DNA of 64,000 bases. Origin: Thalassospira profundimaris (GTDB taxonomy: Bacteria; Pseudomonadota; Alphaproteobacteria; Rhodospirillales; Thalassospiraceae). The notes below the pieces were generated by a model. That model ran no database searches, had not been told where the DNA came from, and saw nothing but the letters and a program-made list of their open reading frames with translations. The position numbers were made by a program, and so were the translations under genes. Location of the stretch: contig NZ_JPWF01000002.1 of the NCBI RefSeq assembly GCF_003326675.1, forward strand, positions 124,001-188,000. Direction: 5' to 3'. Of this stretch, positions 13,367 to 31,850 are shown one piece after another (the stretch's first letter is position 1; each line of letters starts with the position of its first letter).

Positions 13367-13996
13367 TCACTCAACCTCTCTAAAGTACTGAACTTCGATT
13401 AGAGCATGAAGTAGCGCCATATGCCCAACCTCCACAGGACCGTAATGAGAGCTCGGGAAATAAAAAGAAAGGTCACTATCGAGCAACTCAATTCTATTTT
13501 CAGGGTTAAAACCAGATAATGTCACGATAGGTATTCCAATGGACCTTGATATCTCGATAGCAGAAACGATATTTTGAGAATTTCCTGAACTCGAAATTGC
13601 AATAAGTAAGTCGTTTTTCTTGGCCACAAAACTCAACGGACGACTGTAAACATTTTCGTACCCAAAATCATTAGCCATACAAGTAAGTAAAGATGGATCG
13701 TTTATAGCGAACGATGCCATACGTAGTTTACCGAGAACATCCTGAGCTAGATGAGAACAAATTGAGTTACTTCCACCATTACCAACCCACCACACAGTTC
13801 CGTAGCCACTTCGAGTTTGGTTGATCAAGTCCGTAAACTTATTCTGCGCCTTATCCCAATCTGCATACTCACCATCGACTTTAATCTTTGTCTGATCTAT
13901 GCCTGACTTAAGTTCTGAAAACCATTCACTTGTATTTATAATAGCCACAACAACACCTATTCGTCTTACTATTTCTAAAACATGGGCATAATACAC
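13367..13996 (-). CDS. gmhA: SIS-domain sugar-phosphate isomerase, GmhA-like
   Basis: Predicted sedoheptulose-7-phosphate isomerase, first step to activated D-glycero-D-manno-heptose. It is 209 residues in this frame (GmhA is about 190-195). SIS features: WWVGNGGSNSICSHLAQDV binding the phosphate, and ISSSGNSQNIVSAIE. The frame opens with GTG at 13996, 22 nt inside the upstream kinase gene; a GTG at 13948 with a weak AGG is an alternative and gives the more usual length. It is last in the 17-gene minus-strand operon and completes a set with the GHMP kinase and nucleotidyltransferase before it, which supports the heptose assignment over a generic SIS protein. Confidence 0.75.
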   Translation of the reverse strand: MYYAHVLEIVRRIGVVVAIINTSEWFSELKSGIDQTKIKVDGEYADWDKAQNKFTDLINQTRSGYGTVWWVGNGGSNSICSHLAQDVLGKLRMASFAINDPSLLTCMANDFGYENVYSRPLSFVAKKNDLLIAISSSGNSQNIVSAIEISRSIGIPIVTLSGFNPENRIELLDSDLSFYFPSSHYGPVEVGHMALLHALIEVQYFREVE

Positions 13997-14943
13997 GCCC
14001 CAGATTTATCTATTCTAAAAGGTAAAGAAGACATCTTCAGTTTTTCTTCAAGAAAGTCATGATTTTCATGATCCAAAAGAAAAAATCCACCTCCCCCTGC
14101 ACCAAGTACTTTTCCACCAGTTGCTCCAAAAGACATCGCTCTACTATAGACGTCGTCAATATTAGAGCTTGATATTCCATTCACCAGCGATTTTTTCTTC
14201 ATCCACGCCTCATGAAGTACCTCTCCGACAACGTCAGCATTTCCCCTCTCAAGCTCACGTTTTAGAGCATCTACTCCAGCAACCATCTCTCCGAGAATTG
14301 AAACCTTATTGCTTCGGGCTGTTTCGGCGTTTTGCTCGGCGAGAATAACATTCGCATCTCTAGTTTGACCAAGGTAGTATAGCCGAAGACGCCGCTCAAG
14401 GGTCTCCGTGGTCTGGCTAGAGATACTAACAGGTTCCACTGACACACTTTCGTCAGAATTGAACCGAATAACATTCAATCCACCGCATGCAGCGGCATAC
14501 TGATCCTGCTTACCAATCGGCGCGCCAAGAACGTCAATTTCAATTCGACAAGCCTCACCGGCAAGGGACAATCTGCTCTTCATCGTCCCTTTGTAGGTAC
14601 TAAGTGCGTGTAAAAGCGCTACAGTAAAACTACTTGAAGACCCCAGCCCTGTTCCTGCGGGTACATCGGCAATAGATGCAATTTCCAGCTTACCGTTAGG
14701 AGCATATTCTTTAAGACATGCTCGAATCAGAGGATGCCGTACTTCTTCTACGCTATCAACATCTTCCAATTCAGAATACTTCAATCGAAATCTTTTTCCT
14801 CCAAAATACTCATGTATAATAACATACATGTATTTTTGTATAGATGAACTGAGAACTGCACCGCCATACTCTTTATAGTACCACGCCACATCACTTCCAC
14901 CTCCAAGAAGGCTTACTCTAAAAGGAGCCCTAGATATTATCAT
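13975..14943 (-). CDS. hddA: GHMP kinase, D-glycero-alpha-D-manno-heptose 7-phosphate kinase-like
   Basis: Sugar kinase of the GHMP superfamily, 322 residues. MIISRAPFRVSLLGGGSD at the start is the HddA/FKP-type motif 1; VPAGTGLGSSSSFTVALLHAL is the ATP-binding loop and GKVLGAGGGGFFLL is motif 3. HddA makes heptose 1,7-bisphosphate on the way to GDP-heptose. The neighbours upstream (nucleotidyltransferase, 4-nt overlap) and downstream (SIS isomerase, 22-nt overlap) are the other two parts of the pathway. A GmhB-type phosphatase is the missing step; see the C-terminal region of the preceding gene. The exact sugar is inferred from the set. Confidence 0.8.
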   Translation of the reverse strand: MIISRAPFRVSLLGGGSDVAWYYKEYGGAVLSSSIQKYMYVIIHEYFGGKRFRLKYSELEDVDSVEEVRHPLIRACLKEYAPNGKLEIASIADVPAGTGLGSSSSFTVALLHALSTYKGTMKSRLSLAGEACRIEIDVLGAPIGKQDQYAAACGGLNVIRFNSDESVSVEPVSISSQTTETLERRLRLYYLGQTRDANVILAEQNAETARSNKVSILGEMVAGVDALKRELERGNADVVGEVLHEAWMKKKSLVNGISSSNIDDVYSRAMSFGATGGKVLGAGGGGFFLLDHENHDFLEEKLKMSSLPFRIDKSGACIMPMF

Positions 14944-29568: not shown

Positions 29569-30807
29569 CTATAAATTAACGACTTCAACTAGACTATTCA
29601 CTACTCTCTCGACTTCGCGTTCTTCCATATCAAAGAACAGAGGCAATGATAAGCACTGGGCATAGTAAGCTTCAGCCCCAGGGAATTCGGCGATATCCCC
29701 ACACCCACTAAAAACGGGCTGCCGGTACAAAGGAATATAGTGAACATTTGTCAGAATATTTTTTTTGCGAAGTCTCTCCATAACATCAGCTCGTGATATA
29801 CGTATCTTTTCAAAATCTATCAAACAGACATATAAATGCCACGCAGGTTTTTGAACGCCAAAGATTTGAGTACTTTGCAAGACATCACCATAGCAGCCAA
29901 GCATTCTCCGATAACAGTCAACCAAATCACGACGCTTTTTCACAAACATGTCGATTTTAGACAACTGGGATATGCCTAGTGCACAAAGTATATCAGGAAC
30001 CCGATAGTTATAACCTAATTCATGCTGCTCATAGTACCAAGGATTAGCTACCCCCGTCGACGAGAAAGCCTGTGACCTGTCGGTGAACTTTCCAACGTCG
30101 CGAGTCATTCCATGATTCCGCAAAGACCTAATTCTTTCTAACCTTTCACCACAGCGGCCAACAACAGCACCGCCTTCCCCCATTGCGATAGTTTTGACTG
30201 GATGAAAAGAAAACACAGTAAGATCGCTATACTTACACGAACCTACGTTCTCCCAACACGTTCTGTCTTTGTATTTTCCACCGATAGCGTGACAAGCATC
30301 CTCAACAACACGAATATTATACTGTTTTGCAATATCCCAAATTTCCGCCATATCCGCACATTGTCCATTCAAATGAACAACGCATACGGCTTTAATGCGT
30401 TCAGGGTCACATTGAGAAATTGCATTACGTAGGTGATTGGCAGTCATCAATCCGGTTTTGCTATCTACATCAGAAAAGACGATCTCTGCCCCCACAAGCA
30501 TTGCAGTGTAAGCGCTACTAAGGAACGTGATACTAGGAACAATAACAATATCACCCTCTCCAATGCCAAGAGACAAATAGGCCAAATGCAGAGCAGCTGT
30601 CCCATTAGAAACAGCTGCAGCATGCGTAGCTCCTGTTATCTCGCAAATTTTATGCTCGAACTTTGCAACTAAAGGCCCAGTCGTAAGATAATCAGAACGC
30701 AGAGCTGACACCACTGCATCTATGTCATCATCGTCAATGTACTGACGGCCATATGGAAGTAGTCGATCGCCGTTTTCTGATTCAGGAGAGTTCACTTTTT
30801 CAGCCAT
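29569..30807 (-). CDS. pseC: UDP-4-amino-4,6-dideoxy-sugar aminotransferase PseC
   Basis: DegT/DnrJ-family PLP aminotransferase, 412 residues, second step of pseudaminic acid synthesis. [33 protein letters not shown] is the family entry; [21 protein letters not shown] and the PLP Asp/His in [11 protein letters not shown] follow. The Schiff-base lysine is in [15 protein letters not shown]. It overlaps the pseB end by 16 nt, as commonly seen for the pair. UDP-4-keto sugar from PseB is its substrate, glutamate the amino donor. Confident by motif and by its neighbour. Confidence 0.91.
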
Positions 30808-31850
30808 TCTTGAAGATCATCAGCCTGCAACCATTCCGAATTATTATCGGATGCGTAGTAAAAATCTTGGTTCACGTTTTTCCCCATCTGATAGTAGCGA
30901 TTGAAGGCATCAGACGGCCAAAGAGTTGAACTTTGCGGCAAAATAACATAGCGATCTTCAAGCTCGATAGTGTTGCGGGCATCATCCGACGGGATCATAA
31001 CTTCATGCATTTTCTCGCCGGGCCGAATGCCAACAACTTTACGTGCCACGCCGGGCGCCATTGCCTCTGCCAAATCATCGATCTGCATACTCGGAATTTT
31101 CGGAACGAAAACTTCTCCTCCGATCATTTCGGCAAGGCTTGACACTACGAAGGAAACACCTTGACTCAGCGTTATCCAAAAACGTGTCATCTCCGGATCT
31201 GTAATTGGCAGAAACTCTGCCCCATCTTGAAGTAACTTTCGGAAAAACGGCACTACACTGCCGCGTGATCCAACAACATTGCCATAGCGAACCACTGAAA
31301 ATCTGCATCCATTTCTGCCGCTCAGATTATTTGCCGCCACAAATATCTTATCTGAAGCTAACTTGCTTGCTCCGTAAAGATTAATTGGATTGGCCGCCTT
31401 ATCCGTCGAAAGAGCAATCACCTTTTTAACGTTTGTTTTCAGGCAAGCTCTTATAATATTTTCTGCGCCAATGACATTTGTATGAATGCACTCAAAAGGA
31501 TTATACTCTGCTGTAGTAACTTGCTTGAGAGCAGCAGCGTGAATCACGAAATCGATATCTTTGAATGCCATTTCCAATCGATCTACATCGCGGACATCCC
31601 CGATAAAAAATCGAACTCTGGACAAATCATAACCTTCGCCCGCAAGCACCTGCTGAAACTCGTACTGCTTCAGTTCATCTCTTGAAAAAACAACAACCTT
31701 TTTTACCCTAGAGTCTTCTAGAGTTTTTTTAACGAAGGCCTGCCCAAAAGACCCCGTCCCGCCAGTAACGAGGATTGACATATTATCAAACACAGAGAAA
31801 TCGCCGCAGAACCCTCGGAAAATTGCTCCAGATTTGGTGTTTTTACCCAT
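30792..31850 (-). CDS. pseB: UDP-GlcNAc 4,6-dehydratase (inverting) PseB
   Basis: First enzyme of pseudaminic acid synthesis; extended SDR fold. [18 protein letters not shown] is the NAD-binding motif, [13 protein letters not shown] is typical of PseB, and the catalytic region reads [24 protein letters not shown], with T, D and K of the modified SDR triad. The start ATG at 31850 has GGGAAG 8 nt upstream and gives 352 residues; an ATG at 31931 would add 27. Even so there are about 20 residues before the usual start. First gene of the 17-gene minus-strand operon; the promoter should lie just upstream, divergent from a GT4 gene. Confidence 0.9.

Follow-up and report, generated by a model that had tools for sequence, protein, structure and literature searches.

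Why does an operon for pseudaminic acid that already encodes a canonical synthase carry a second enzyme of the NeuB fold? The question arises from a 64,000-nucleotide stretch of DNA from the marine bacterium Thalassospira profundimaris (contig NZ_JPWF01000002.1, positions 124,001 to 188,000 of the forward strand; hereafter the window), in which the pseudaminic acid synthase PseI and a diverged relative, here called NeuB2, are encoded in one minus-strand operon running from 31931 to 13367. A sequence-only reading of this locus had proposed a composite nonulosonic acid (NulO) operon with two synthases. The surprise goes beyond the mere presence of two synthases: NeuB2 stands for a conserved branch of NeuB whose metal site has been rebuilt and which travels with an ordinary synthase. 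NeuB2 probably makes or shapes a further sugar product.

NeuB2 belongs to a conserved branch with a rebuilt metal site

NeuB2 matches the Pfam NeuB domain with 211.9 bits (cut-off 22.1) and a C-terminal SAF domain with 29.4 bits (cut-off 21). It aligns over nearly its full length with NeuB and PseI, and its predicted model has the sialic acid synthase fold with both domains. However, it fails both synthase equivalogs, with 211.4 bits against 340.25 for PseI (TIGR03586) and 243.5 against 399.65 for NeuB (TIGR03569). In a phylogenetic tree, for which 65 of 94 rows were kept (the 29 dropped being repeats, fragments and second copies), 22 NeuB2 rows lie beyond one branch (Shimodaira-Hasegawa-like approximate likelihood ratio test, SH-aLRT, 97) and 42 canonical rows beyond another (96). 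One divergent row from a genus-mate forms a long branch of unsure placement. NeuB2 as simply another PseI or LegI was rejected, since it falls under both equivalog cut-offs and into a separate clade. The earlier description of a second, clearly different synthase holds for the fold and the clade. A reading as an ordinary second synthase is not supported, as one Mn2+ histidine and the pseudaminic-type (Pse-type) Phe are also gone and nearly every NeuB2 genome has another NeuB gene. Homologues of NeuB2, where named in the databases, are called 'SpsE', 'N-acetylneuraminate synthase family' or 'N,N'-diacetyllegionaminate synthase'.

Residues are given in what we take, in part, to be the numbering of N. 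meningitidis NeuB (NmNeuB). The conservation figures come from the best 120 of 2297 NeuB2 homologues, all at least 59% identical to the query, and therefore overstate conservation. A wider residue comparison set 25 unique NeuB2 rows, reaching down to 51% identity, against 44 non-NeuB2 rows of NeuB type. Residue lists for the phosphoenolpyruvate (PEP) and aldehyde sites were taken from PMC6795526 and PMC7371886, and the two Mn2+ histidines were assigned from PMC7591256 (in excerpt) and from spacing. Among the 120 homologues the equivalent of His236, the second Mn2+ histidine, is Thr in 114 and Ser in 6, that of Ser154 is Asp in all 120, and that of Asp247 is Glu in all 120. The wider comparison gives the same picture. 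Thr, Asp and Glu occur together in 23 of 23 NeuB2 rows that are complete at these sites and in none of the 44 others; all 25 NeuB2 rows, whose locus records name several phyla, have these residues wherever the columns are present. The non-NeuB2 rows carry His (43), Ser (43) and Asp (44), the single odd row being a still more divergent protein from a genus-mate.

This genus-mate protein (L036 / L077:10243-11325, minus strand) is 31% identical to NeuB2, has DTG and EKG motifs, and shares the Asp and a non-His residue with it. A PseF-like gene, an ABC transporter and a methyltransferase lie near its gene.

Around PEP and the aldehyde carbon, NeuB2 is largely invariant (again in the best 120 of 2297). 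Glu25, Lys53, Gln55, Thr110, Lys129, His215, Glu234 and Arg314 are kept, the last in 120 of 120, and this set speaks for a retained chemistry on PEP and an aldehyde, as far as residues can tell. A further site separates Pse synthases (Phe) from neuraminic and legionaminic acid (Neu/Leg) synthases (Gly) (PMC7371886). Here the PseI of the window, which has both Mn2+ histidines and the motifs KVASFE, SDH and IEKH, carries the Phe, and the 120 NeuB2 homologues carry Ala, Gly or Ser. The 44 non-NeuB2 rows have Phe (23), Gly (11), Asp (5), Ala (3) and Thr (2) at this site, and Ala alone is therefore not diagnostic. A decaying NeuB2 family was rejected on the fixed residues and on 75 invariant columns among 35 sequences. 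One NeuB2 copy (G050; L031, L075) is split in two by in-frame stops, although the canonical synthase frame of its cluster is intact.

NeuB2 travels with a canonical synthase

We compared the neighbourhoods of 26 NeuB2 loci, the window included, by tblastn with seed proteins. L021 and L079 were treated as one cluster, as were L071 and L113; L013 and L016 stem from one genome (G433) and count as two loci. L020 was left out of the locus table because it looks the same as L019, and both their genomes (G438 and G439) are among the 25 NeuB2 genomes. These two metagenome-assembled genomes, labelled Elusimicrobia and Rokubacteria, apparently hold the same genes with equal lengths and identities, which suggests a shared mis-binned contig.

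A canonical synthase was found within 20 kb of NeuB2 in 20 of the 26 loci. Five of the other six (L003, L013, L017, L022, L023) are cut by contig ends, and L074 has none on 17 kb. A further NeuB match above 150 bits was present in 24 of 25 NeuB2 genomes; the exception, G442, is a draft in which the NeuB2 contig is cut. Given without a background rate of two-NeuB genomes, the pairing is suggestive. The partner is not of one kind, and NeuB2 adjoins pseF whether the partner synthase is of Phe type or of Asp type (L004, L010, L012, L018).

Besides the canonical synthase, the 26 loci contain a pseF-type gene (22), pseB (20), pseC (19), pseG (18), hisH (10), a wbpG-type gene (10), hisF (9), gfo (8), pigL (8), a hemL-like gene (7), gnat (5) and fmt (4); genes for an aldo-keto reductase (AKR) and for SpsF were found at none. 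The HisH/HisF/WbpG set matches amidotransferase and acetamidino-modification models, and NeuB2 therefore works with differing decorations.

Two arrangements stand apart. In Desulfobacteraceae drafts (L006, L007, L011, L022) neuB2 directly follows pseB with no pseC between, and L007 has no PseC relative in 21 kb. In another genome a single 525-residue frame (L113:6127-7704, minus strand) joins a GNAT-like N-terminal part, recognised by eye, to a canonical synthase about 18 kb from NeuB2.

The operon encodes most of the pseudaminic acid route

The genes of the operon are as follows.

30792..31931, minus strand: PseB, UDP-GlcNAc 4,6-dehydratase (5-inverting); TIGR03589, 513.9 bits (cut-off 407.75)
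29569..30807, minus strand: PseC, C4 aminotransferase; TIGR03588, 463.5 bits (cut-off 423.5)
28466..29536, minus strand: NeuB2, diverged NeuB-fold enzyme of the 'EKT' clade; PF03102, 211.9 bits
27768..28469, minus strand: PseF-like cytidylyltransferase; PF02348; TIGR03584, 132 bits (below cut-off 205.7)
26761..27771, minus strand: Gfo/Idh/MocA-type oxidoreductase (Gfo); PF01408, PF22725, PF02894
25447..26745, minus strand: HemL-like class III aminotransferase; PF00202, 189.3 bits
23935..25407, minus strand: PseG UDP-sugar hydrolase with a C-terminal GNAT fusion; TIGR03590, 220.2 bits (cut-off 153.55); PF13302
23224..23913, minus strand: formyltransferase-like protein; PF21553, PF00551
22137..23207, minus strand: PseI, canonical pseudaminic acid synthase; TIGR03586, 481.5 bits (cut-off 340.25)
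21456..22121, minus strand: PIG-L-family de-N-acetylase; PF02585, 88.9 bits
20838..21431, minus strand: GNAT acyltransferase, weakly PseH-like; PF13302, 75 bits; TIGR03585, 39.7 bits (below cut-off 93.1)
19088..20845, minus strand: ABC exporter (MsbA/PglK-like); PF00005, PF00664; PglK model NF050066, 219.9 bits (under cut-off)
17592..19103, minus strand: capsule/surface carbohydrate glycosyltransferase-like protein; PF05159, 20.4 bits (cut-off 20)
16057..17598, minus strand: surface carbohydrate glycosyltransferase-like protein; NF046086, 40.1 bits, and TIGR04396, 31.9 bits (both under cut-off)
14940-16016, minus strand: nucleotidyltransferase, GDP-heptose-like; PF00483; HddC, 42.8 bits (under cut-off)
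13975-14943, minus strand: GHMP kinase, GDP-heptose-like; PF00288; HddA model, 149.3 bits (under cut-off)
13367-13996, minus strand: SIS isomerase, GDP-heptose-like; PF13580; gmhA, 89.5 bits (under cut-off)

Judged against the NCBI equivalog cut-offs, PseB, PseC, PseG and PseI lie above and the PseH-like domains and the PseF-like enzyme below. The GNAT domain fused to PseG reaches 25.2 bits with the PseH model TIGR03585 and, judged by this match, might possibly act as PseH. With the PseH part this weak, the 'full' pseudaminic route that had been claimed is slightly too strong a term. The proposed Gfo, class III aminotransferase, formyltransferase, PIG-L and GNAT genes are all in place on the minus strand, with family matches well above chance. 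The limit of 31850 once given for the operon has to be moved, as the pseB frame extends to 31931; about 48 N-terminal residues precede its family match, and the true start may be internal. The PseF-like frame overlaps neuB2 by 4 bases with a TTG start, and a later ATG would remove this overlap.

The formyltransferase gene is placed between PseG and PseI, and N-formylated NulOs are known chemistry. Its closest solved relative is 1zgh (E 3.5e-66). Formyltransferase and the nearby PIG-L and GNAT presumably swap N-acetyl for N-formyl or another acyl group. At the downstream end, the SIS, GHMP and nucleotidyltransferase genes resemble a GDP-heptose set, although no match to a GmhB-type phosphatase was found among the operon genes. 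The nucleotidyltransferase has about 120 C-terminal residues past its Pfam match.

The genome has one PseG and, besides KdsB, one cytidylyltransferase

Both PF03102 matches of the genome lie inside the operon, and its only PseG match is that of the operon. The sequence-only reading had noted a single cytidylyltransferase in the window; this is correct and can be widened to the genome, where the only other PF02348 (CTP_transf_3) match is KdsB, so named by its model. Two Epimerase_2 genes (PF02350) pass the cut-off of the non-hydrolysing WecB model and fail that of NeuC, and a third match, which stays under the cut-off, falls within one of the operon's glycosyltransferase genes. Thus, a PF02350 search of the genome for a hydrolysing epimerase that could serve the second synthase returned none over the NeuC cut-off, and besides PseG no standard enzyme releasing a free amino-aldose for it was seen in the genome. 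A plain parallel pathway is therefore not obvious in a genome that has a single PseG, lacks a NeuC-type epimerase and has, apart from KdsB, a single cytidylyltransferase. The choice posed before, between a promiscuous cytidylyltransferase and a second product that is not activated, omitted a third option, namely that NeuB2 and PseI serve one common route.

The aminotransferase and its neighbours are separable modules

The HemL-like enzyme falls under the equivalog cut-offs of TIGR00713 (288.2 against 527.3 bits) and NF004856 (371.2 against 486). In a survey of 398 genomes of the phylum, the own genome included, the HemL-like enzyme was found in 15 (E 1e-90), AKR in 15 (E 1e-25) and NeuB2 in 6 (E 1e-80). 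The 14 HemL-like genomes besides that of the window contain AKR in 10 cases and NeuB2 in one, leaving 13 without NeuB2; conversely, 19 of the 26 NeuB2 loci have no HemL-like gene and 18 no Gfo, some of them being cut by contig ends. The extra genes are therefore separable modules, and Gfo and HemL-like enzyme as part of NeuB2's own reaction were rejected on these counts. What had been suggested about a second or heavily modified sugar accordingly divides in two: a modified NulO as product class is well supported by the gene set, but the set does not form one pathway around the second synthase.

Two alternative enzyme sets are found around the same kind of class III aminotransferase, either AKR with SpsF, or Gfo with NeuB2 and a PseF-like enzyme. 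At 12 HemL-like loci without NeuB2, tblastn found AKR in 9 (an earlier frame-based count gave 8), SpsF in 8 and Gfo in none; at seven with NeuB2 it found neither AKR nor SpsF, and Gfo in 6. Fisher tests gave p = 0.003 for AKR, 0.013 for SpsF and 0.0003 for Gfo, but the loci came from different searches and are non-independent. The AKR and SpsF seeds had no match in window positions 8001-36000, nor had the AKR seed any in the own genome at E 1e-25. In the window the order is PseF-like, Gfo, HemL-like, PseG, which places the HemL-like gene between the cytidylyltransferase and PseG with Gfo intervening. At three loci (L099, L101, L106) a single open frame encodes both an SpsF-type cytidylyltransferase and the HemL-like aminotransferase, a fusion which suggests that the two enzymes share a metabolite.

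What NeuB2 may do

Our tentative preference, held at slightly less than an even chance and read from the residues, is that NeuB2 is a catalytically active, diverged synthase with another acceptor. From the observed genes, clade, residue changes, pairing and counts we infer the reactions of NeuB2, Gfo, HemL-like enzyme, formyltransferase, PIG-L and GNAT, and propose the following route. The operon would supply a surface glycan with a CMP-activated, N-acyl-modified pseudaminic-type NulO. A free 2,4-diamino-6-deoxy-altrose derivative, produced by PseB, PseC, PseG and either the fused GNAT or the formyltransferase, would be condensed with PEP by PseI. NeuB2, keeping most of the machinery for PEP and the aldehyde C1 around a rebuilt metal site, would use another acceptor and give a second nonulosonic-type product, activated by the same PseF-like enzyme. 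Gfo and the HemL-like aminotransferase may oxidise and then aminate one hydroxyl position, and PIG-L together with formyltransferase or GNAT may exchange N-acyl groups.

Several points weigh against this reading. No separate source of a free acceptor sugar was seen in the genome, with its one PseG and both Epimerase_2 genes of WecB type, and one cytidylyltransferase would have to serve two products. NmNeuB residue 154 presumably lies near the PEP site, where a change from Ser to Asp could disfavour phosphate. A plain parallel pathway is made less likely by this Asp and by the missing separate supply of acceptor, and an independent second pathway would not need the further NeuB gene that is present in 24 of 25 other NeuB2 genomes. 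Nor is Ala at the Phe/Gly site peculiar to NeuB2, as 3 of the 44 non-NeuB2 rows share it. The equivalent of Phe112 is Phe in the NeuB2 of the window and Gly in 65 of the 120 homologues, and site 184 is Ser in 118 of them, as in Pse enzymes (PMC7371886, by our own mapping), which speaks against a wholly different acceptor. Loss of the histidine by itself is less telling. In Caulobacter, NeuB with a Mn2+-coordinating residue changed (H245A) still supports flagellin modification and motility in part, which E30A and R322A do not (PMC7591256, in excerpt), and by spacing H245 should be the equivalent of NmNeuB His236. His loss alone therefore does not rule out a synthase.

A second reading, which we regard as unlikely though worth serious weighing, is that NeuB2 does without PEP condensation. 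Its substrate would be the finished 2-keto-3-deoxy acid from the canonical synthase, which it might convert as a C4-inverting aldol-type isomerase, for instance, and pass on to the PseF-like enzyme. The single PseG, cytidylyltransferase (besides KdsB) and absence of anything over the NeuC cut-off would then be expected, and the pairing (20 of 26 loci, with five of the remaining six cut by contig ends; another NeuB in 24 of 25 genomes) is consistent with it, as is the fixed replacement of the His236, Ser154 and Asp247 equivalents. NeuB2 would also be expected beside pseF with either a Phe-type or an Asp-type partner if it read the end common to all NulOs. However, most PEP- and C1-site residues are kept, co-occurrence of two NulO genes is expected anyway and is counted here without a background rate, and we know of no NeuB-fold isomerase. 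The broader claim is less likely still: that within the NeuB/DAHP/KDO8P synthase superfamily NeuB2 represents a functional branch of its own, newly arisen, in which PEP condensation has been given up and the 2-keto-3-deoxy end of a partner-made NulO is remodelled (e.g., by C4 inversion), and which with the PseF-like enzyme would define a widespread NulO class new to structures.

It is improbable that NeuB2 catalyses little itself and serves as a partner subunit, either in a domain-swapped heterodimer with PseI or as a specificity tuner. N. meningitidis NeuB forms a domain-swapped dimer, the antifreeze-like domain of each chain completing the site of the other (PMC7591256, in excerpt), and both the frequent pairing and the Arg314 equivalent kept throughout the 120 homologues would suit such a role; but the partners of NeuB2 belong to at least two unlike types of synthase, its barrel is itself strongly conserved, and the canonical gene is about 18 kb away in the L071/L113 genome and missing on the 17 kb of L074. 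It is very improbable that recombination left NeuB2 behind as a redundant or decaying copy of a synthase, with a simple 7-N-formyl or re-acylated pseudaminic acid as product. Although the island is accessory and modular, one NeuB2 copy in another genome has internal stops and N-formylated NulOs are known, the 25 unique NeuB2 rows from several phyla by record share the same replacements in a single clade (SH-aLRT 97), which is not a pattern of decay.

The NeuB2 branch allows a direct test of the extent to which the NeuB mechanism depends on the metal site, and it points concretely to new acidic surface sugars. Predictions of NulO products lean on the type of NeuB homologue, and a mislabelled NeuB2 branch would mislead in the genomes that carry it.

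The operon probably sits on an acquired low-GC island

A zinc-transport permease that flanks the operon is 93% identical to its T. profundimaris counterpart, and the named matches next in rank belong to the same genus. GC content is 39-45% over approximately 10-34 kb of the window, 46-49% at 2-10 kb and 51-58% to the right of 34 kb. To the left of the low-GC region lie:

2163-2252: tRNA-Ser
5732-7669: HindIII-type restriction enzyme and DNA methylase
7761-9611: DUF6538/phage-type integrase

A NeuB2-type gene occurs in 1 of 29 genomes of the genus Thalassospira, and the matches listed for the remaining ones are of canonical level (27-35% identity). The low GC, the flank with tRNA-Ser and integrase and this rarity among congeners therefore indicate that the operon probably sits on an acquired, integrated accessory island.

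Comparison with known systems

In searches of the open-licence literature we recognised neither a NeuB branch lacking the second metal histidine nor the gene set of this operon, which is weak evidence of novelty. PMC9290775 gave nothing on formyl groups, a class III aminotransferase, a deacetylase or a second NeuB, and PMC13317340, in excerpt, nothing on two synthases of the PseI and NeuB2 sort. For flagellin islands of Shewanella (PMC3765264) and Geobacillus (PMC5109656), both in excerpt, a NeuB-domain gene and formyltransferases are mentioned, though not in the arrangement of this operon.

Compared with NeuB of N. meningitidis and PseI of C. jejuni (8h2c), NeuB2 shares the fold and most PEP- and C1-site residues, but differs by Thr for the second Mn2+ histidine, Asp for Ser154, Glu for Asp247, the absence of the Pse-type Phe, and a predicted beta hairpin (63-83) in the acceptor-loop region. 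The operon resembles the PseB-C-H-G-I-F pathway of Campylobacter and Helicobacter in its PseB, PseC, PseG and PseI, all above equivalog cut-offs. In contrast to that pathway, its PseH-like domains and PseF-like enzyme stay below cut-off, and it adds the second NeuB-fold enzyme, Gfo, HemL-like aminotransferase, formyltransferase and PIG-L.

The O-antigen cluster of Legionella pneumophila Sg6/Sg12 (PMC3694923, in excerpt) likewise has a gene like glutamate-1-semialdehyde (GSA) aminomutase (class III), PseG, a cytidylyltransferase, DegT and CapD, but one NeuB is listed, and an aldo/keto reductase, HisF and HisH are present; the reductase form of the aminotransferase cassette can be recognised in it. 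Two dehydrogenase genes there are of unspecified type, one given as 'oxidoreductase domain', so that a Gfo is possible. In another cluster PseC is followed by a protein in which SpsF and an aldo-keto reductase are fused (PMC7371886, in excerpt).

The Aeromonas group IA AKR-SpsF-HemL cassette (PMC7874193, in excerpt) is similar in gene order, and there too an aminotransferase of this kind stands between the cytidylyltransferase and PseG. Unlike this cassette, the operon has NeuB2, the PseF-like enzyme and Gfo in place of the reductase and its cytidylyltransferase, and it also has the formyltransferase, PIG-L and the PseG-GNAT fusion; the same excerpted source gives Aeromonas no second NeuB of the NeuB2 kind and reports a Gfo/Idh/MocA gene in group III. 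The flagellin of A. hydrophila AH-1 carries a 403 Da pseudaminic-like sugar (PMC4691044, in excerpt), whose odd nominal mass implies an odd number of nitrogens. A third nitrogen from an aminotransferase of the HemL-like type would fit, provided that AH-1 belongs to the subgroup with such an enzyme, although an amidine would also give an odd mass.

The clearest case of the AKR-SpsF-HemL-like form is L098 (G066), with the order pseB-pseC-AKR-SpsF-HemL-PseG/GNAT-fmt-pigL-pseI. This is nearly the same cassette as in the window, its shared enzymes being 32-55% identical, but it has AKR and SpsF where the operon has NeuB2, the PseF-like enzyme and Gfo, and the order of pigL and pseI is reversed.

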